From: Burkholderia sp. USMB20
Lineage (GTDB): Bacteria; Pseudomonadota; Gammaproteobacteria; Burkholderiales; Burkholderiaceae
Direction of reading: 5' to 3'
NCBI RefSeq assembly: GCF_000949135.2
Contig: NZ_JTAN02000005.1
Span: 186,001 to 250,000, forward strand
Length of the DNA: 64,000 nt
Under the pieces are notes generated by a model. It saw only the letters and a list, made by a program, of their open reading frames with translations, had not been told where the DNA came from and made no database searches. Positions 4,564 through 57,151 of this stretch are shown here, piece after piece; within the stretch, counting starts at the first letter, position 1; every line of letters starts with the position of its first letter. The translations under genes were made by a program, and so were the position numbers.

Positions 4564-5124
4564 CTACGATCCTGTCCGTCCAGGTAGCGTAGCAACCGAG
4601 ACCTGACTGCCGGCGAGCATCCTGTTCGCTCGGCGCACGAACACCCAGTGCCAAACCCAGAGCAAAACCGCAACGCCGCCCGCGATGGAGCCAATGGTAT
4701 TGGGTATTAGCGAAAGAACCTGGGCAAGACACCACCCGATGCCGCTGATCCGGCCGAACGAGCGCAAACCCGACAGAGCCGGATTGATACGAGACTCCGC
4801 TTCCAGGGACTTCGCGACGTTGGAAATAATGAAGAAGTCCTCGATGAAGTTGTATGGCAAGAGGAACATGAGCCAGACACTGTTGGGTTCGGCCGCACGC
4901 GATCCTCGGTTGACCGATTTCAGGGTGGTCCTGAGGTCGCTCGCGTAGGCATAGACCAGCGCCAGGAAAACCGCGATGACGACGATGCCACCGATCGGCC
5001 CAAGCATCTCCATTTCGCCGAGAACGCCTCCGCCTTCAGCGGGATAGATAAGGGGATAGGCGAGCCCAAAGGCAATGGGGATGCTCAGAATGGCTTTGAG
5101 AATGGTCCGCGCAGTTGTGCTCAT
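4564..5124 (-). CDS. Hypothetical integral membrane protein
   Basis: 186 residues from the ATG at MSTTARTI. Hydrophobic stretches near residues 8-25, 38-60, 90-105 and 145-170 suggest about four membrane segments. The FLLPYNFIEDFFIISNVAK stretch is distinctive, but I do not recognise the family. Convergent with the LysR gene upstream in the window. The 13-residue longer reading frame is less likely as it has no clear ribosome site. Expressed alone as far as can be seen. Confidence 0.6.
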   Translation of the reverse strand: MSTTARTILKAILSIPIAFGLAYPLIYPAEGGGVLGEMEMLGPIGGIVVIAVFLALVYAYASDLRTTLKSVNRGSRAAEPNSVWLMFLLPYNFIEDFFIISNVAKSLEAESRINPALSGLRSFGRISGIGWCLAQVLSLIPNTIGSIAGGVAVLLWVWHWVFVRRANRMLAGSQVSVATLPGRTGS

Positions 5125-47346: not shown

Positions 47347-47431
47347 GCCGACGTGGTGAAATTGGTAGACACGCTATCTTGAGGGGGTAGTGGCGAAAGC
47401 TGTGCGAGTTCGAGTCTCGCCGTCGGCACCA
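47347..47431 (+). tRNA. tRNA-Leu (anticodon GAG)
   Basis: 85 bases including an encoded CCA. The acceptor arm GCCGACG pairs with CGTCGGC near the 3' end; the anticodon loop TTGAGGG gives GAG. A long variable arm (GGTAGTGGCGAAAGCTGTGC) and GTTCGAGTC T-arm complete the cloverleaf. Reads CUC and CUU leucine codons. Confidence 0.95.
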
Positions 47432-47467: not shown

Positions 47468-47501
47468 AACCGCGACAGCGCAAGGCTTCGCGGTTTTTTT
47501 T
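47468..47501 (+). terminator. tRNA terminator
   Basis: Stem AACCGCGA / TCGCGGTT with a 12-base loop and a run of T residues. Ends the tRNA transcript. Confidence 0.85.
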
Positions 47502-47680
47502 ATTGCATCGGCAAGCCGGGCCGATGCGTGGACCGGCGCGTCATCGAAGAACGAGACGCGGCTGCCGGCCGGCGTCGCGCCATCGATGCGCGAAGCGGCG
47601 GCCCGGACACGCAATGTGCGCCCGCCGACACGGTGTCGCGGACCGCGTCCAACGGCGATCCGGTTGAATGCTCGAGTGAA

Positions 47681-49057
47681 TCAGATTGCGGTTTTCGGCT
47701 CGCGGACTGCTCGCACGAGCGTGATGCGCCAGCATCCAGCCGCCGCCAGCGACAACCCGATCGCAACGAAGATCGCGACGCGCACGCCTCCCCCCGGGGT
47801 CTGCGCGGTGCTCATCAGCGCGCCGAAGATCGCCACGCCGAATGCGGAGCCGCTTTGCCTGCTCGCATTGAGCACGCCAGCCGCGATGCCCGCACGGCTC
47901 TTCTCGACGGCGCCCATCATCGCGGCCGTGACGGCCGGCGTGATCACGCCCGAGCCGAATCCGACCGCGGGAAAACACAACGCCACGCGCCAGTACGGCG
48001 CATCGCTCGCCAACGCCAGCAACCCCGCGAAACCCGCTGCGTAGAGCAGGAATCCCGCGACCACGACCCGGCGCGCGCCGAACGACCGACACAACCGGCC
48101 TGCCGAGAAACTGCCGGCCGTCACCAGCACGGTGAGCGGCAGAAATGCGAGACCGGTCTGCAACGGCGGCCAGCCGCGGTTCTCCTGGAAATACAGGCTG
48201 AGCAGGAACAGCAATCCGTAGAAAATCAACGCCGACACCAGTGAGACGAATACCGATGCGGAAAACACCGGAAGACGAAACAGGCCGGGCGGAAGCATCG
48301 GTTGCGCGCGGCGGCGCTCGATCGTGACGAAACCGGTCCAGGCCGCGACGGCCAGCACGATGCCGCCGAGAATCGGCGTCGATCCCCATCCCAGTTTCGC
48401 GCCCTCGATCAGGATCGCAACCGAACTGCCGAGCGCGATGATCGCCGCCACCTGGCCGGCAAAATCCATATGCGCTCCACCCTGGCGATGCGATGCGCGA
48501 GGAATGTGCGTCGTCAGCCATGCACCACAAACGGCGAGCGGAACGTTCACGAAAAAGATGCTTCGCCATCCGAACCAGTGGATCAGGAGACCACCCGCGA
48601 GCGGGCCGGCCGCCATCGCGATGCCGCCGCAACCGGCCCACACGCTGATCGCCCCGGCCCGCTCCTGCTCGTCCGGGTACGCCGAGGTGATCAGCGTCAG
48701 CGAACACGGCACGAGCAGCGCGGCGCCGACACCTTGCAGCACGCGCGCAATGACCAGCGTCGCGAGATCAGGCGCGGCGCCGCATAACGCCGACGCGGCT
48801 GCAAACACCAGCAAGCCGGTCAGGTACACGTTCTTCGCGCCGAGACGATCGCCGAGCAAGCCTCCCGTCAGCAGCAGGCTCGCGAACGTCAGCGTGTAGG
48901 CATTGACGACCCACTGCAGCCCCGAAACATCCGAGCCGAGTGTCGCCGCGATCCGTGCGAGCGCAACGTTGACGATCGACGTGTCGAGTATGACGACGAC
49001 ATAGCTGAGGCTCGTCGCCAACAGCACGCTTTTCTTAAATGCGATTGTTTCATTCAC
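47681..49057 (-). CDS. MFS transporter, DHA2 drug-efflux type
   Basis: 458 residues with 12-14 hydrophobic segments, motif GDRLGAKNVYLTGL in the first loop, and GGIAMAAGPLAGGLL (motif C). Proton-driven multidrug exporter in the inner membrane. Begins with GTG at the centre of a 16-bp palindrome. Divergent from an ArsR-type regulator with about 150 bases between starts. Confidence 0.88.
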   Translation of the reverse strand: MNETIAFKKSVLLATSLSYVVVILDTSIVNVALARIAATLGSDVSGLQWVVNAYTLTFASLLLTGGLLGDRLGAKNVYLTGLLVFAAASALCGAAPDLATLVIARVLQGVGAALLVPCSLTLITSAYPDEQERAGAISVWAGCGGIAMAAGPLAGGLLIHWFGWRSIFFVNVPLAVCGAWLTTHIPRASHRQGGAHMDFAGQVAAIIALGSSVAILIEGAKLGWGSTPILGGIVLAVAAWTGFVTIERRRAQPMLPPGLFRLPVFSASVFVSLVSALIFYGLLFLLSLYFQENRGWPPLQTGLAFLPLTVLVTAGSFSAGRLCRSFGARRVVVAGFLLYAAGFAGLLALASDAPYWRVALCFPAVGFGSGVITPAVTAAMMGAVEKSRAGIAAGVLNASRQSGSAFGVAIFGALMSTAQTPGGGVRVAIFVAIGLSLAAAGCWRITLVRAVREPKTAI

Positions 49058-49065
49058 GTGAATGA
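49050..49065. promoter_or_regulatory. Perfect palindrome on the exporter start codon
   Basis: TCATTCACGTGAATGA is a 16-bp perfect palindrome centred on the GTG start of the exporter. It is the strongest symmetrical site between the two divergent genes and a candidate operator of the neighbouring ArsR-type regulator, which could block both transcription and start-codon access. Confidence 0.45.
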
Positions 49066-49205
49066 GGCCCCTTGCGGAATAGCGCGTTGACTATAAGCGC
49101 GGGGCCTTCGACAATGCTTCGGCGCGTATCGAAGTATGGAAGTGTGCCGGACCGAACATCGGTTCGCGATACGAAAAAGACAATAAATGGAACCGGAGAG
49201 AAACA

Positions 49206-49958
49206 GTGAGTCAGCACAATATTTCAACCGTGGCCCACCTGATCGCGGAGCCCGTGCGTGCCGTGATCCTGATCACACTGACGGACGGTTGTGCCCGCTC
49301 GGCGAGCGCGCTTGCGGAAGTCGCCGGCGTCACCGCTCAAACGGCGAGTTCGCACCTCGCAAAACTGCTTGACGGCGGCCTGCTGAAAGTGGAAAGCAAG
49401 GGCCGGCACCGCTACTACAGTCTGGCCGGCCCGCACGTTCCCCGCGTGCTCGAGAGCCTCGCGTCCGTTGGCCCCGTCTCGCAGGCATGGCGCACGACGC
49501 CGAATCGTTCCGCGCGGGAATTGCGCTTTGCGCGCTGCTGCTACGACCATCTCGCCGGACAGATCGGCGTTGCCGTCACACAGCGCATGCTCGAGCGCGG
49601 CTACCTCGTCGAGCACGGCGAATACGCGTATGAACTCACACCGAGCGGGCATTCGTGGCTGCAGCAACTGGGCCTCGACGTCGGCAGTCTCTTCGCCAAT
49701 CAGGCAGGATACGCGCACCGGTGCCTCGACTGGACCGAGCGGCAATTTCATATTGCCGGCGCACTCGGCGCCCATTTGATGAATGCATTCTGTACGTGGG
49801 GATGGATGACCCGCGGTCATGAGACCCGCGTCGTCGCCGTGACGCCGGCCGGCTGGGATGCGCTGCGTGAACATTTCGGCATCGAGCGCGACGCCGAACT
49901 GGACGCGCAGGCGCAGCGCGGCGCGCCGCGCTTCGCCGAACAACGCGAGACGGCCTGA
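49206..49958 (+). CDS. ArsR-type winged-helix regulator
   Basis: 250 residues from a GTG with GGAGAG upstream. Residues 5-85 are a winged helix (VRAVILITLTDGCARSASALAEVAGVTAQTASSHLAKLLDGGLL) of the ArsR family. The long C-terminal extension (90-250) is unusual for this family and has Cys and His that could bind metal or a ligand, for example RCCYDHLAG. Probable repressor of the divergent exporter. Confidence 0.85.
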   Translation: MSQHNISTVAHLIAEPVRAVILITLTDGCARSASALAEVAGVTAQTASSHLAKLLDGGLLKVESKGRHRYYSLAGPHVPRVLESLASVGPVSQAWRTTPNRSARELRFARCCYDHLAGQIGVAVTQRMLERGYLVEHGEYAYELTPSGHSWLQQLGLDVGSLFANQAGYAHRCLDWTERQFHIAGALGAHLMNAFCTWGWMTRGHETRVVAVTPAGWDALREHFGIERDAELDAQAQRGAPRFAEQRETA

Positions 49959-49988
49959 CCGGCACGCCGCGGGGGCATCACGCAGGCG

Positions 49989-50148
49989 CGTCGATCGCCT
50001 GCAACGCCGGTTGGCGGCGGTAGCCGCCGGCGGCTGTCGGCTGCGGAGCAATTGCTGCTTTCGCTTGCGCGTGTCGGTGTCGATTTATCCAATCCGCAGT
50101 TCGAACAGGCAATCAACGATTGCGTAGCCAACCTCCAATCAGGCTGAT
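49989..50148 (+). pseudogene. Coding-like remnant
   Basis: A frame without start codon, reading into LSAAEQLLLSLARVGVDL and QAINDCVANLQSG before TGA, looks like the C-terminus of a protein, but its upstream part runs into the ArsR gene. Probably a gene fragment left beside the AT-richer segment. No family recognised. Confidence 0.3.
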
Positions 50149-50241
50149 CGGCCAATTTCCATGTACGGCCAAGAGCGACCATTCCACGATCACGCGTTTA
50201 TACTCCCAGACACAGCAATCTGCGTGATACGACAAGGCCAA

Positions 50242-50625
50242 ATGAAAACGAGAGAATTGTTGATCGCTTCGCTAGGAGCGTTGGTGTTGACTCAACCTTC
50301 ACTATCCTTCTCGCAAAACATCAACGGGAAAAATCTCTATATACAAAGATGCGCGATGTGCCATGGCGTAGATATCAGGGGCACCGGGCCATTGGCCAAG
50401 AAAAGCAATCCTGCCACGCCTGACCTCACAACTGCTGCGTTCAAAAAGCGACTCCATGATTATCCAGGCGTCATTGTTTCATCGGTAATACTTCGTCCGA
50501 ACGGGGACCTGATTCCGAGAACTTTGAGGGAGAACGGCGTAAAGCTTGCGCCGCACTCCTGGACCGTTCAGGATTTTCGCGATCTGAATAACTACATGAG
50601 TGACGTGATTTCCAAAAGCCGATGA
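50242..50625 (+). CDS. Small periplasmic c-type cytochrome
   Basis: 127 residues. Signal peptide 1-24 (ending SFSQ), then heme-binding CAMCH (Cys37, Cys40, His41). The distal ligand is unclear: Met only in YMSDV near the end, otherwise His in APHSW. Start set at MKTRELL, since the upstream part has no signal character. Codon usage is clearly AT-richer than in neighbouring catabolic genes, suggesting transfer. Possible electron acceptor for a dehydrogenase; no partner gene nearby. Confidence 0.8.
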   Translation: MKTRELLIASLGALVLTQPSLSFSQNINGKNLYIQRCAMCHGVDIRGTGPLAKKSNPATPDLTTAAFKKRLHDYPGVIVSSVILRPNGDLIPRTLRENGVKLAPHSWTVQDFRDLNNYMSDVISKSR

Positions 50626-50785
50626 TTCCGTGTTGACCGTCTGACCGCGATGAGTCGGGTACTGTCGGATTCGGAAGCATCATCGGCAGAGCGCATTGCT
50701 GGCTCATCGTCGGGCCGGGTTCGGCCCAGACCGTGTCAAAACGTGCATCGGGCTACCGTTGTTCCTCTTCTGATCTGAACTGAAA

Positions 50786-51565
50786 ATGTTGCCACTCTAC
50801 AAGTTTGTCCTCGGCCCAATTCTGGTGATACAGGCACGCAGGCTAAGGAGAACGGCGCTACGCCTACCGGAAGCAGCGGGGCCTCGTTGCGGGAGGGAAG
50901 GCTCGCGAGAGGCCCTGCAACCGGCCTTGCGAATTCTGGTTGTCGGTGACTCGTCGGCGGCAGGAGTGGGGGTCGACGATCAGGTACAGGCATTAGCGCA
51001 ACCGGTTGCCAAAATGCTGGCTATCAAACTGGGCAGGCCCGTTACATGGCAACTGGTGGCAAAGTCGGGTGTCAACACTGAAGAGTCTCTAGCGCTATTA
51101 AGGCAGAGCGAATTACAGCCGGCGGACTTTCTCGTAACCGCATTGGGTACTAACGATGTAACGTCGCAACGTTCGCCACGCCAGTTCCTGCAAGACTATC
51201 GGCGACTGGTTGAAGAAGTCCGCCGTCGCACCGGCGCATTCGGTCTGGTAGCAACAGGGCTACCGCCATTGCGAATTCTGCCAGCGGCGCAGCACCCGCT
51301 GCGCTGGTACCTGGGCCGATATGCCGCGTCTCTGGACCGCACGCTGCGGCGGTGGATTAGCAAGGACGCTGCCGCGCGCTATATATCGCTTGATTGGGCA
51401 GCAAAGCCGCTCGAGATGGCCCGTGATCGATTTCACCCCGGGGCTGGGCAATATCGCTGTTGGGCTGAGCTCGTCAGCGAGCAGATCGTGGATTTACTGG
51501 TTAAGGATTCCGGGCCAGTGGTTGATCTGGGCATGTGCAACGTAAAGCTTGAACGTCCGCTGTAG
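50786..51565 (+). CDS. SGNH/GDSL-type hydrolase
   Basis: 259 residues. SGNH blocks: GDSSAAG (Ser56), Gly95 in KSGVNT, Asn123 (LGTNDV), and DRFHPG with Asp214 and His217. Esterase or lipase/acyltransferase activity. N-terminal 20 residues are hydrophobic-basic and might be a membrane anchor. Stands alone in the AT-richer segment. Confidence 0.85.
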   Translation: MLPLYKFVLGPILVIQARRLRRTALRLPEAAGPRCGREGSREALQPALRILVVGDSSAAGVGVDDQVQALAQPVAKMLAIKLGRPVTWQLVAKSGVNTEESLALLRQSELQPADFLVTALGTNDVTSQRSPRQFLQDYRRLVEEVRRRTGAFGLVATGLPPLRILPAAQHPLRWYLGRYAASLDRTLRRWISKDAAARYISLDWAAKPLEMARDRFHPGAGQYRCWAELVSEQIVDLLVKDSGPVVDLGMCNVKLERPL

Positions 51566-51885
51566 AGGAAAGCGATTGGCTGAATCCGCCGTCGGCTACG
51601 GCCGACCGCGTCGGGCGGCAGTCGGCCATAATGCGCCATTCATCTGCACGCTTCCACCGACGGTCGAATGTCGATGCCGCGCGGGACAGCGGACTTTCGC
51701 GACCGAGAGATATCGAATGAGTCGCAAGCCGATTCGGATGTTCGTCACCAAAGATGGCCACTTCGCTCGCGAGCGGCCTATCTACCTCTGACGACGGACG
51801 TTCGGCAGAAGTCCACCTGGCGACGGCCGGCCCATCACTACGCTATCTGGGCCGGCCCCGATCGCGGGCTGCGTTGGCAGCTCGA
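51566..51885. other. Intergenic, GC-rich remnant-type sequence
   Basis: 320 bases with several short frames that read like the degenerate intergenic sequence seen again at 54000. A near-palindrome GTCGGCTACGGCCGAC lies near 51590. No gene or clean repeat unit can be supported. Confidence 0.4.
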
Positions 51886-52218
51886 CTACGCGAGGCTATC
51901 GGGAGCAAGTTGTAAAACCCGTGCCGGTGCCGCCCTGAAGGTCGGGCTATGTGCATCGGCCGCAATCATGTGAGGCGTTACGTCGTGTGCCGCCAATGCT
52001 TCAGTTGACGCCCAGCGTTCGATCAAGACAAATCTACTTTCGTCACCGACGACAGAATGGAGATCGTACTGGAGACAGCCTTGCTCCGCACGCACAAGCG
52101 GCGCTAACTTTTCATATGCCGCGATTTGCTCGTGGCCTTTTCCTGGAAGGGTTTGAATCGAGATAACAAGCATCAGCTCCCGTTCGCAATTCCGGCTGTG
52201 ATGATCTACTTTGCTCAT
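51886..52218 (-). CDS. Antibiotic-biosynthesis-monooxygenase (ABM) fold protein
   Basis: 110 residues, or 95 if started at the ATG at MLVISIQTLPGKG. The ABM dimeric alpha+beta barrel is seen in TLPGKGHEQI...LVRAEQGCLQYDL (Cys near residue 47) and SRFVLIERWAS. Quinol-type monooxygenase or a non-enzymatic homologue. The outer ATG has GGAG at good distance, and the leader peptide/attenuator ends 50 bases before it. Probably controlled by that leader. Confidence 0.75.
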   Translation of the reverse strand: MSKVDHHSRNCERELMLVISIQTLPGKGHEQIAAYEKLAPLVRAEQGCLQYDLHSVVGDESRFVLIERWASTEALAAHDVTPHMIAADAHSPTFRAAPARVLQLAPDSLA

Positions 52219-52271
52219 GACGACTCCGTGCTGGTGTGATACCGACGAAAGACGATCAGCCGTAAACGCGA

Positions 52272-52300
52272 AAGGCCCCGTCTTTTGCCGGCGGGGCCCC
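52272..52300 (-). terminator. Putative attenuator terminator
   Basis: Minus-strand stem GGCCCCG / CGGGGCC (can extend to GGGGCCCC) with an A-rich loop, followed by TTTCGCGTTT. The U-tract is interrupted, so terminator strength is uncertain. Confidence 0.5.
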
Positions 52301-52322
52301 TGAAAATATGCAACGACGAAGA

Positions 52323-52409
52323 TTACCGCGTGCGCATCAAGGACGACCCACCGTTGCCGATGGTCGTCGTTGTAATGACGGTCACGAAAGGAATCAGATT
52401 GCGTTGCAT
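52323..52409 (-). CDS. Candidate leader peptide (28 aa, Thr/Ile-rich)
   Basis: The peptide begins MQRNLIPF, has the block VTVITTTTIGNGG, and ends LMRTR. Five Thr in a 9-residue stretch with Ile/Val between them recall the E. coli thr operon leader peptide (which also ends its Thr/Ile run with GNG). No Shine-Dalgarno sequence is visible, and transcription start may lie close to the ATG. TTGACT at 52445-52440 could be its -35. Confidence 0.5.
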   Translation of the reverse strand: MQRNLIPFVTVITTTTIGNGGSSLMRTR

Positions 52410-52425
52410 ATTGCTACGCTAACTC

Positions 52426-52442
52426 ACTCGCCGCAGGCGAGT
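52426..52442. promoter_or_regulatory. Inverted repeat in the leader promoter region
   Basis: ACTCGCC GCA GGCGAGT, a perfect 7-bp inverted repeat, overlaps the presumed -35 of the leader transcript. Candidate operator. Confidence 0.35.
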
Positions 52443-52483
52443 CAACTCCACTGAGACCTACACACACTTCTCCTACGTTCCTC

Positions 52484-52631
52484 GAACGGCGATTGCACAT
52501 TTGAAAGCCGCCGTCTAATCCGAGCGGATTCGAGAGGCTGATGTGGGTCGGTAACGGCCCATCGCTGAAACGTCTGGCGTAGGTCTCGGCGTAGGTTTGT
52601 GATCTGCGTCTTGTCAGATAAGGTGCAGGTA
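52484..52631. repeat. Degenerate direct repeat, copy A
   Basis: Its last 95 bases (from GCTGATGTGGGTCGG to GGTGCAGGTA) align with copy B at 54718-54809 at roughly 70% by eye, and its beginning (GAACGGCGATTGCACA) resembles copies B and C. Same orientation as the others. Confidence 0.6.
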
Positions 52632-52687
52632 TGATCACAGTGGACTCGGATATGAAGATGTATTCACAACTATTAACGCCCCCCTGT

Positions 52688-53017
52688 TTACGGCGCCGCC
52701 ACAATGAATATTCGAATTATTGCCACCGTGCCGATGATGATCGTAATCGTTGTCAATAATGGAATTAATATTGTTTTTCTTCTCTCTCCTTTTGCGTTAA
52801 ATGTAGCGAAGTTATATATGCTCGGATATGATTTTTTTACTCGAAATGGAATGACAAACATCGCGATAAGCGTCAAGACGAAGCATACGTCTCGCCAATG
52901 AGCCATTTGGGTTGATATTGGTGCTCGACCGTGACCGTAAAATGCGCGAACGTAGTAAAAAAACAAAACCGCCGAGACCAATGCGGCGTCCATCAAATGC
53001 AAGGCAATTTTCTTCAT
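52688..53017 (-). CDS. Small AT-rich membrane protein
   Basis: 109 residues from MKKIALHL. Three hydrophobic segments (near 6-22, 38-55, 82-105). Codon use is markedly AT-rich for this genome (many Ile, Lys, Phe), suggesting recent acquisition. A weak GGGG site precedes the ATG. No family recognised. Lies between direct repeats A and B. Confidence 0.6.
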   Translation of the reverse strand: MKKIALHLMDAALVSAVLFFYYVRAFYGHGRAPISTQMAHWRDVCFVLTLIAMFVIPFRVKKSYPSIYNFATFNAKGERRKTILIPLLTTITIIIGTVAIIRIFIVAAP

Positions 53018-53170
53018 GATGCTACCCCGCCAAGCTTTGATTGTTGCGTTTGGTAGCAATTAGATGCAATGGCAGCGGAGTTTTCAAGGAATCGTTAACC
53101 CCATTGCATTTCACACACGTCAATCCGAAAGAGTTGTAAACTTTCGCGCGGCGTTTGGCCCATCTGAAGC

Positions 53171-53225
53171 GAATGGCTGCTTTGCAGAAGGGCGGCTGTC
53201 CGCTCCGGGTCGGAAGCGGGCCTCC
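53171..53225. repeat. Degenerate direct repeat, copy C (short)
   Basis: GAATGGCTGCTTTGCAG...CCGCTCCGGGTCGG repeats the first module of copies A and B, same orientation. Coding-like short frames over this piece are typical of such intergenic family members and were not annotated. Confidence 0.5.
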
Positions 53226-53393
53226 ACGTGAGTCTGCTACCGGCCAGGAGGAGACATTCGACAGTCGTGTCCAGATCGTCGACAATCGGCGCAAAGCCAT
53301 GAACGCTGCGCTCGGCGCGTCAGCGCTTGAGGCAGTGTCCTTTCCGGATAAGCAGTCTGTCTTCAAGGTCGCTGGGATTGCTATGGGGGAAAC

Positions 53394-53975
53394 ATGCAGC
53401 CTGCGTCTAACCACGATTCACTCGATTGGCCCCTTGTTTGTGCCGCCGGATTAATCGCCGCGCTTAGCGCGCTGGCAATATCGCACGAGCTTCTGTTAGT
53501 GGCGTTGTTTCTACTTATTCCGACTGCCGGGGTCGCAGTTTGGCTTGTGGTTCGAATTGTATACGCTGCGAAATCAAGAAGCATCTTAGGCATAACATCC
53601 GCCGTCATTGCAGCAGTGTTCGCTTACCTTTCCGCACAGTGGATTTTGCCGGGTCGAGACATTCTGGAACATTCAGCTCAGGCGTTCCGATTCGAAGGCG
53701 AGAGGGCAACTTACGAGGCACTGGTCGCAAACTACAAACTGGCCGATCCGCATCGAAACTTCATCATTTTTGAGGCAAAGAATGAAAGACAGCCCGGCGA
53801 GGTCGATCAGCGTATTGCCTACGATGAGACCGAAGCGCTCAGCCGCGGAAAAGTGGAAGAAGTCAACGAATTGGTCATCCGTCAGTCGCCTCAGGACGCA
53901 GCTGAATTTGCTTCGTGCCGATGGAAGGCCGCTCATCTCGATGGATACTTTTACGTTGTAGATTTTTTTTGTTGA
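53394..53975 (+). CDS. Hypothetical membrane-anchored protein
   Basis: 193 residues. Two or three hydrophobic segments in the first 95 residues (LVCAAGLIAALSALAI, LFLLIPTAGVAVWLVV, SVAVIAAVFAYL-like), then a soluble domain of about 100 residues (EFKNERQPGEVDQRIAYDETEALS). GGGGGAAAC precedes the ATG. No family recognised. AT-richer than surroundings. Confidence 0.55.
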   Translation: MQPASNHDSLDWPLVCAAGLIAALSALAISHELLLVALFLLIPTAGVAVWLVVRIVYAAKSRSILGITSAVIAAVFAYLSAQWILPGRDILEHSAQAFRFEGERATYEALVANYKLADPHRNFIIFEAKNERQPGEVDQRIAYDETEALSRGKVEEVNELVIRQSPQDAAEFASCRWKAAHLDGYFYVVDFFC

Positions 53976-54186
53976 TGAACGTCCGTTGCTGCGTAGACTG
54001 TGAGGTCGTTGTGGGTCGGCGACAGTCGACCGCGTGCGGCGGTAGCCGGCCAGAAGCGGTCAACCGACGGCTCGGAGAGATCGGTAACAATCAGTCCAGT
54101 TCTTACGGGGGGCAGGGAAACGTACATCGCCGGCAAACAACCGAGACGCAACTAGAACAAAGTGCTTGAGACAAGGGGGCACGAAT

Positions 54187-54645
54187 ATGCGATCCAGTCT
54201 TCACCCTTACATTTCGATTGCTACGACATTTGTTCTCTGCCTGTGTCTTGGGGCTTGCAAGCAGGAACAAGACAAGTGGCCTGCTCTATTGCAAAACGTG
54301 ACGGCGAGTGGTGGTTACTGGGGCGCGTGCCCGCCTAAGGACAGGATCGGACAGGAAACGTTGAAAACCATGGGGCGGCTTGGAACATCGCCTGAACTTG
54401 ACGCCCGATTGAATGCCGGTTTCCCTCCTGGATCGGATGCTCAGAAACTCGAAAGGATCCTTGCTGAACAAGGATTTCACCTTGACGGTGTCTGCCAGAC
54501 AGACCGGTCGATTCATGCTGCCGACTTTTTCCGTAAAGGCGAGGACTTCCTATCTTACGGTGTGTCCGCAGAAGTCTATTGGAAAGTGGATCAAATCGGA
54601 AAAATCGAGTGGACGAAAGGATTTGTTATGTTTGTCGGCTTATAG
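54187..54645 (+). CDS. Hypothetical lipoprotein
   Basis: 152 residues. Lipobox LGAC with Cys24 after a hydrophobic N-terminus, so it should be lipid-anchored in the envelope. Cys in GACPPKDR and DGVCQTD may form a disulfide. The longer in-frame start (54166) has no better site. No family recognised; the same island as the two membrane proteins. Confidence 0.65.
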   Translation: MRSSLHPYISIATTFVLCLCLGACKQEQDKWPALLQNVTASGGYWGACPPKDRIGQETLKTMGRLGTSPELDARLNAGFPPGSDAQKLERILAEQGFHLDGVCQTDRSIHAADFFRKGEDFLSYGVSAEVYWKVDQIGKIEWTKGFVMFVGL

Positions 54646-54687
54646 AATCATCGGATTGTTGACAACAAAGACTGTGGTTGGTCGATT

Positions 54688-54809
54688 GAATGACCGTTTG
54701 CAAATCACTAAAGGACCGCTGAGGGTCGGCATCGGCCAGTCCTGAAAAGATCGAGCGTAGGTCGTGGCGTAGCTTCGTGTGCCGATCCCTATCAGACAAG
54801 GCGCAGGTA
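54688..54809. repeat. Degenerate direct repeat, copy B
   Basis: Reads GAATGACCGTTTGCAA, then a segment matching copy A through GAGCGTAGGTCG to GGCGCAGGTA. It bounds the low-GC cassette on the right as copy A does on the left. Confidence 0.6.
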
Positions 54810-54887
54810 CTGCTGCATCAGCATTCCCCCTCTCCATCAGAAAACGGCGCATCGCTCGACCGATCACCCACACGCCCTACCCCGCCC

Positions 54888-55774: not shown

Positions 55775-57151
<1,377 letters not shown>

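Follow-up and report, generated by a model that had tools for sequence, protein, structure and literature searches.

A putative threonine attenuator of the thrL kind precedes an ABM-fold gene and spare threonyl-tRNA synthetase genes in Burkholderiales

Attenuation by a run of threonine codons and attenuators of aminoacyl-tRNA synthetase genes are both well known. The thrL leader of E. coli consists of a short open reading frame (ORF) with a threonine run, a terminator, and an antiterminator in which the ORF end pairs with the 5' arm of the terminator, and the known thr leaders serve amino-acid supply. At the E. coli pheST attenuator, a leader peptide controls a tRNA synthetase, while thrZ of B. 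subtilis encodes a second threonyl-tRNA synthetase (ThrRS) that is induced through a T-box upon ThrRS limitation. For trpL/rnTrpL of S. meliloti, a leader peptide has been described whose ATG forms the very 5' end of the attenuator transcript that encodes it (PMC7298713), and ObaO is presented as the ThrRS that provides immunity to obafluorin (PMC11252418, PMC10619133).

The leader described here resembles thrL in its short ORF, a threonine run ending near GNG-G, a terminator, and an antiterminator that joins the ORF end to the 5' arm of the terminator. Its sequence, conservation, constrained folding, selection on the threonine core, and homologous leaders at ThrRS genes strongly support reading it as a threonine attenuator of this kind. 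Unlike thrL, it is predicted to be leaderless, would respond to threonine only, and has no match in Rfam, and its family precedes genes for a short second ThrRS (ThrRS2), ABM-fold proteins, isochorismatase-like proteins, and MFS transporters rather than threonine biosynthesis genes. Like pheST, it would place an aminoacyl-tRNA synthetase under ribosome-mediated attenuation that responds to the cognate amino acid, but here the amino acid is threonine, the synthetase is a second copy, and the cargo has been exchanged for non-synthetase genes. The likeness to thrZ lies in a spare ThrRS that is switched on under shortage of Thr-tRNA, though by a leader peptide here and by a tRNA-binding T-box there. 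An ATG at the 5' end of an attenuator transcript, which is only predicted here, recalls trpL/rnTrpL, whereas the S. meliloti system concerns tryptophan and the trp operon. We found no report of a threonine attenuator before ThrRS or ABM genes of Burkholderia in the open-access literature and, as far as this literature tells, three things are new: the family in Burkholderiales, the leaderless form predicted for it, and cargo that can be exchanged.

The locus lies in a stretch of 64,000 nucleotides from Burkholderia sp. USMB20, called the window below, and the leader and the gene that it precedes are on the minus strand. A first-pass annotation of this DNA had proposed a threonine/isoleucine attenuator, composed of a 28-codon ORF and a G/C stem with a T-rich tail, in front of an orphan monooxygenase gene of the ABM fold. 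The ORF (MQRNLIPFVTVITTTTIGNGGSSLMRTR, 28 codons plus TAA, 52323..52409 with its ATG at 52409) is borne out by the presence of the same leader at nine distinct ABM loci, and the intrinsic terminator that follows it (G/C stem 3:4 and T-rich tail, about 52262..52301) is conserved together with the ABM gene at 51886..52218, as folding and alignment agree for the terminator. Its T tail in the window is short and interrupted. Upstream, a -35 box (TTGACT, 52440..52445) lies 18 nt ahead of a weak -10 box (TTAGCG/TAGCGT, three of six matches, 52416..52422), which in turn precedes the leader ATG by about 6 nt. An automatic search picked a TTGAC-like -35 box and a -10-like hexamer 6-7 nt before the ATG in 28 of 30 leaders, and inspection by eye located TTGACG at the same position in the other two (L121, G016). 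This spacing, from which we infer the transcription start, predicts a leaderless mRNA with the start of the peptide at a 5' ATG. Of 200 dinucleotide shuffles of the leader region, 199 fold less well than the native sequence (z -3.4).

No leader family of Rfam matches the window at the gathering cut-off or at E values up to 10, so that the search with its Thr_leader model, suggested as a check in the first-pass annotation, came back empty; a T-box is likewise absent, and the sole Rfam match is a tRNA. A BLAST search of the leader against 61 genomes (the nearest one and 60 relatives) gave matches in seven of them, located before ABM genes and, unexpectedly, before a short ThrRS gene. Two of these seven genomes (L006/L007) were rejected, as their matches overlap part of an unrelated ORF. 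A custom covariance model, the other search suggested, did recover the leader family at ABM and ThrRS2 loci: In 65 genomes of the genus, this model (R1) yielded eight matches above 140 bits and a second tier at about 35-59 bits that comprises threonine-rich leaders before ThrRS2 genes plus other loci. We excluded R1 matches of around 30-36 bits and 156-157 nt (seen at L036, L038, and L039) as a different conserved leader-like locus.

A protein search for ThrRS2 in the same 65 genomes found 19 genes that align with almost the full query at 61-100% identity, and an R1 match lies just upstream of all 19 full-length genes as well as of a degenerate copy in G074. Three ThrRS2 proteins that we tested score above the NCBIfam thrS cut-off and have catalytic and anticodon domains in Pfam; neither an editing nor a TGS domain was matched in these three. 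Among ABM orthologs of the genus with at least 75% identity, five of five carry the leader, including the B. arboris copy (G027) in which the ABM gene is split over two frames, and two copies at 59% identity (G009 and a fragment in G084) are without it. In named genomes, we located ABM relatives at 40 loci and ran R1 on 25 of these plus L107. The leader is present at seven of these 26 loci (two Trinickia, Burkholderiaceae bacterium 26, B. paludis, B. aenigmatica, Burkholderia sp. D-99, and B. arboris) and was not found by R1 at the other 19, which include ABM relatives of Pseudomonas, Streptomyces, Actinomadura, and Burkholderiaceae. Four of the named loci coincide with contigs already counted in the genus genomes, which leaves nine distinct ABM loci with the leader, this window included. 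At L142 (positions 4901-5013, also seen at L009), a second terminator-like copy with an R1 score of 43 bits lies about 1 kb past the leader and the broken ABM gene of B. arboris.

Two further models, R2 built on ThrRS2 and MFS leaders and R3 on isochorismatase leaders, extended this picture. R2 had matches with E values of 1e-3 or better in at least 169 of the 398 family genomes. Forty matches were chosen from other genera, mostly stronger ones. These 40 lie with ThrRS genes in 18 cases (17 short, one full length), isochorismatase genes in 15 (two of them in two pieces), and ABM genes in three; the remaining four have none of these cargoes and are also without a threonine run. At the level of the order, R2 matched eight of 300 genomes at 1e-5, and the four matches outside the family are all located before isochorismatase-like genes. 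A collection of plasmids gave no match to the window DNA, and the ABM protein hit 24 plasmid records there, every one below 60% identity.

R3 gave 31 matches above 80 bits in 30 of the 65 genus genomes, and among 30 loci that we examined 27 have a match to an isochorismatase-like protein (PF00857) and three do not. Some of this cargo is truncated (e.g., at L208). At L219 and L220, the isochorismatase cargo looks decayed and the start codon of the leader is also altered, so that decay seems to affect leader and cargo jointly. One genome has two isochorismatase-type leaders about 650 bp apart (L206; G001:C3:872240 and 872891). As for MFS cargo, an open transporter frame lies directly behind the leader at L101-L104 (PF07690 in four of four), the loci L100 and L105 look decayed, and at L106 a degenerate ThrRS2 is followed by an MFS transporter. 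In G103, the leader is upstream of a full-length ThrRS with serine at the position of E. coli Gly463 and methionine at that of Leu489 (motifs AFYSPK and QADYLMPEK). No threonine biosynthesis gene was seen among the cargoes examined and no ilv gene among those recognized.

This distribution also bears on whether the leader could be a chance ORF before the terminator of an upstream gene. In its favor, the leader at L001-L003 lies just behind a GNAT gene, and at L021 and L025 (G088, G089) a similar terminator without a threonine ORF follows a GNAT gene. However, the window has no such gene just upstream, the leader has a promoter motif of its own and occurs at different genomic places, and the threonine core is conserved; the leaders at 19 of 19 ThrRS2 genes already contradict a chance ORF, which we consider extremely improbable.

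The threonine attenuator model rests on mutually exclusive pairings. Region 1 is formed by four threonine codons (ACA ACG ACG ACC, codons 13-16, 52362..52373), which the first-pass annotation had paired alternatively with GGGTCGTCC inside the ORF or with TCGTCGTT behind its stop codon. Folding upholds the former as the protector hairpin 1:2 (CGACGACC...GGUGGGUCGUC, 52342..52368, -16.5 kcal/mol); the latter is not kept in aligned relatives. The antiterminator is instead a pairing that the annotation did not contain, between region 2 (CGGUGGG, 52347..52353, from folding and alignment) and region 3 (CCCGCCG, 52289..52295), which lies in the 5' arm of the terminator and has either region 2 or region 4 as its partner. 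The 2:3 segment has a window energy of -32.6 kcal/mol and the terminator stem one of -14.8 kcal/mol. What is conserved behind the stop codon is a pairing of CGUUGCAU (52308..52315) with the first eight bases of the ORF (AUGCAACG, 52402-52409).

We simulated translation by constrained folding, with bases masked as if by a ribosome at a given codon. In a transcript that ends before arm 4, the probability that arm 3 pairs with region 2 is 0.90 with the ribosome at codon 10 (a lone threonine codon), 1.00 in the middle of the run, and 1.00 at its end, and it falls to 0.01 with the ribosome at the stop codon and 0.00 in free RNA. In the full transcript, the terminator has a probability of 0.82 for codon 10, 0.28 for mid-run, 0.02 for the run end, 0.82 for the stop codon, and 0.82 for free RNA; at equilibrium, a stall at codon 10 thus leaves the terminator as probable as in unstalled RNA. 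Shuffled sequences, a modest control, reached the mid-run value in 4 of 100 cases for the window and in 0-17 of 100 across 30 leaders. A switch between mid-run stall and stop-codon ribosome is predicted in eight of nine ABM leaders and four of four ThrRS2-B leaders, the sole ABM exception being L142. In L120, the closest relative, pairing 2:3 has a probability of 0.97 in free RNA and of 0.05 with the ribosome at the stop codon, and the ThrRS2-B leaders reach only 0.50 for 2:3 when stalled at the last threonine codon. For ThrRS2-A and MFS leaders, 2:3 is still favored with our crude ribosome-at-stop state in 12 of 13 and the ribosome-free state leans to termination in most, and outcomes for isochorismatase leaders are mixed; the simple switch model therefore fits the ABM and ThrRS2-B leaders best.

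An alignment of 13 leaders of one subfamily (nine ABM and four ThrRS2-B) provides a second view of the same helices. Helix 1:2 is paired in 92.3% of cells and terminator helix 3:4 in 98.5%, together 95.4%, a level reached by 30 of 500 column shuffles. The 7-bp core of 2:3 has standard pairs in every cell of the 13 rows except one, in L142; with its extension, 85.2% of cells are paired, without changes on both sides, and 235 of 500 column shuffles reach this fraction. The helix that joins the 5' AUG to the bases past the stop codon is paired in 91.3% of cells, compared to at most 48.1% in slid controls. Two of its pairs have changed on both sides, a number reached by 447 of 500 shuffles; for the covariation score of this helix, 10 of 500 shuffles do as well.

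Comparing the conservation of the peptide, as had been suggested at the outset, revealed purifying selection that is strongest on the threonine core. Over eight ABM leaders (the broken B. arboris locus was left out), pN/pS is 0.32 for codons 12-21, 0.70 for codons 2-11, and 4.4 for codons 22-28. In the 13 aligned leaders, codons 13-15 are always threonine and codon 16 is threonine in 11 and proline in two. The runs comprise 3-5 threonine codons in ABM leaders (merely three consecutive ones in L122 and G002), 6 in ThrRS2-B leaders, and 7-10 in most ThrRS2-A leaders; ThrRS2-A and MFS leaders mostly have their 7-10 threonines nearly consecutive, and the runs of isochorismatase leaders are interrupted. 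Sensing of charged tRNA(Thr) by the leader is well supported.

A dual sensor for threonine and isoleucine, as originally proposed, would explain why all nine ABM leaders have isoleucine at codon 17, right after the run, and why six of the nine have one before it. Against such a sensor, codon 17 is threonine in all four aligned ThrRS2-B leaders, the wider leader family has no consistent isoleucine at the run (though some members have one), and no recognized cargo is an ilv gene. We consider dual sensing very improbable, though less so than a chance ORF. The threonine half of the proposal is carried by the conserved core, the switch in folding, and the leaders of ThrRS genes; threonine is likely the signal, and the isoleucine codon is probably incidental.

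The ABM gene encodes 110 aa of a putative cofactor-independent monooxygenase (PF03992, E 1.6e-15, 57.4 bits against a cut-off of 23.1), for which an AF2 model (mean pLDDT 88) found PA3566 (1x7v) as best PDB match. Residues 1-11 are disordered in this model (pLDDT <50). The likeness between ABM and ThrRS2-B loci spans promoter, leader, ribosome-binding site, and gene start: Over nine ABM and four ThrRS2-B gene starts, a mean of 12.9 of the first 18 coding nt (range 9 to 15) and 3.6 of the next 12 are identical. The GGAG ribosome-binding site and the first six ABM codons (52201..52227) are therefore a probable relic of a thrS2 start, and the corresponding N-terminal stretch is missing from those Pseudomonas and Streptomyces ABM frames whose start lies near the core. 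MFS genes share 14.1 of the first 18 bases with ThrRS2-A starts, then 7.4 of 12 and 6.2 of 12. From these common start codons, it looks as if the ABM cassette derives from thrS2 with its promoter, leader, ribosome-binding site, and around six codons, and ABM and MFS genes would both have been fused behind a thrS2 control region. The notion of an orphan gene under an attenuator hence holds for the attenuator but not for the isolated oddity, as the gene looks like captured cargo of a thrS2 leader. ThrRS2 was not found in the three Trinickia and g48 genomes that have the ABM cassette, and the neighbors of ABM relatives in Pseudomonas and Streptomyces, judged from ORFs, are varied and uninformative.

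The same resemblance of gene starts, together with threonine runs in ABM leaders that are shorter than those of ThrRS2-B and most ThrRS2-A leaders, would also be expected if the ABM leader were a non-functional leftover of a thrS2 deletion that has lost its regulation. However, the threonine core is under purifying selection across Trinickia and Burkholderia, and the switch between mid-run and stop codon is predicted in all ABM leaders except L142. This exception precedes a frameshifted ABM gene, so that leader and cargo would decay together there as in L219 and L220. We thus regard a mere relic as improbable.

We consider it likely that the window instead carries a working unit made up of promoter, leaderless threonine leader peptide, and attenuator, descended from a thrS2 control region, fused to ABM, and induced by shortage of Thr-tRNA(Thr). 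With plentiful Thr-tRNA(Thr), the ribosome would reach the stop codon and hairpin 1:2 would form and hide region 2, so that terminator 3:4 could form and keep ABM off. With scarce Thr-tRNA(Thr), the ribosome would stall in the ACA-ACG-ACG-ACC run, region 2 would pair with arm 3 of the terminator, and RNA polymerase would read into ABM. In an untranslated leader of the window, the 5' AUG would be paired with the sequence behind the stop codon and the terminator would still form. In the cell, termination and its relief by uncharged tRNA(Thr) would thus make a small oxygenase-like gene that is probably turned on when threonine cannot be loaded onto tRNA, and one switch family before a spare ThrRS and other genes suggests a common alarm for threonine-tRNA trouble.

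As to the purpose of this alarm, our leading yet unproven reading, which we hold tentatively and at a little less than an even chance, is that the cargoes shield the cell from inhibition of its ThrRS, for instance by a natural product. Streptothricin hydrolase, an isochorismatase-fold enzyme that inactivates an antibiotic, is a precedent for such cargo. ObaO is reported to carry the replacements Ser463 and Met489, of which Ser463 and not Met489 confers obafluorin resistance on E. coli ThrRS, and Ser463 also provides borrelidin resistance (PMC11252418). The leader-controlled ThrRS of G103 resembles ObaO, itself a second ThrRS, in sharing both replacements, which we count in favor of a defense purpose. 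An obafluorin-type resistance of the short ThrRS2 was rejected as, unlike ObaO, all 19 in the genus keep Gly463 and Leu489. Also counted against defense, ABM relatives in Pseudomonas and Streptomyces have neither the leader nor informative neighbors. As further points against it, the only other ThrRS with Ser463 found in the 398 family genomes (L281, G162:C8, Trinickia genus, also with Met489) is without a threonine leader, and Ser463 and Met489 occur together in a ThrRS of three of 369 class genomes, all from one other family (L282-L284: G689, G783, and G577), where this ThrRS may be the resident enzyme. In contrast to what a parallel with ObaO would suggest, neither an obafluorin-type cluster nor a peptide synthetase was recognized in around 38 kb of ORFs near the G103 ThrRS (six proteins scanned); this stretch encodes FecCD-, ABC-, DcuC-, MFS-, and LysE-type transporters as well as a nuclease-helicase. 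The FecCD-type and ABC-type transport genes (L275:137-4871) lie about 16-20 kb from the ThrRS at the edge of the stretch, and there may be a siderophore cluster beyond them.

A plain response to threonine starvation, in which the same switch operates and ABM, isochorismatase, and MFS proteins help under low threonine without any involvement of antibiotics, is a serious possibility that we nevertheless find somewhat doubtful. It agrees with the role of known thr leaders in amino-acid supply, with the lack of known resistance substitutions in short ThrRS2, and with the lack of a recognized obafluorin-type cluster around the G103 ThrRS. Yet no cargo that we examined resembles a gene of threonine biosynthesis, and a spare ThrRS, a putative MFS transporter, ABM, and a hydrolase resemble a target copy, efflux, and modifying enzymes. 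Returning to protection from ThrRS inhibition, we put forward, as a speculative and rather doubtful extension, that Burkholderiales have a dispersed stress regulon in which exchangeable threonine attenuator cassettes answer a drop of Thr-tRNA(Thr), typically caused by the ThrRS-inhibiting antibiotic of a rival. If so, its output would comprise a ThrRS that is either spare or resistant, along with an efflux pump and modifying enzymes (the ABM oxygenase and the isochorismatase-like hydrolase), its switch would detect poisoning of the target rather than the drug, and new cargo would arise by fusion of genes to the leader and the first thrS2 codons.

Irrespective of purpose, Thr-tRNA charging offers a testable input and a physiological context for an ABM-fold protein and an isochorismatase-like hydrolase, and the attenuator family leads us to predict that specific genes of Burkholderiales are switched on by ThrRS inhibition. 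Our results suggest that an attenuator can act as a portable sensor and exchange its cargo through gene fusions, of which common start codons are the visible trace, and that this leader family is a possible route to genes answering ThrRS-inhibiting natural products.

Window positions 51601-52499, which include the ABM cassette, are 91% identical to Trinickia soli, and for an aminotransferase gene at 55826-57151 the identity to genomes of the genus (e.g., G015 and G001) reaches 96%. The segment at 47.5-54.88 kb has no match above 150 bases in stretches from five relatives; its flanks are 107 bp apart at an empty site in G015, three other relatives have 2-7 kb of different DNA between them, and in G016 one flank is covered. 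Because of this absence, the closely spaced flanks in G015, and a tRNA-Leu(gag) gene (47347-47431) at the edge of the segment, we place the ABM cassette in a young island. Besides the cassette, this island (47500-54885, around 7.4 kb) encodes a DHA2-type MFS efflux protein, an ArsR-like regulator, a cytochrome c, a GDSL hydrolase, and small proteins, several with low GC3. Loci L036, L038, L039, and L258-L260 differ from the threonine leaders: their conserved leader-like ORFs contain a core of Ile/Ala/Asn/His (IAIANH, IANAINHPIHAI), have a terminator, and stand upstream of genes, and they possibly represent further attenuator families.
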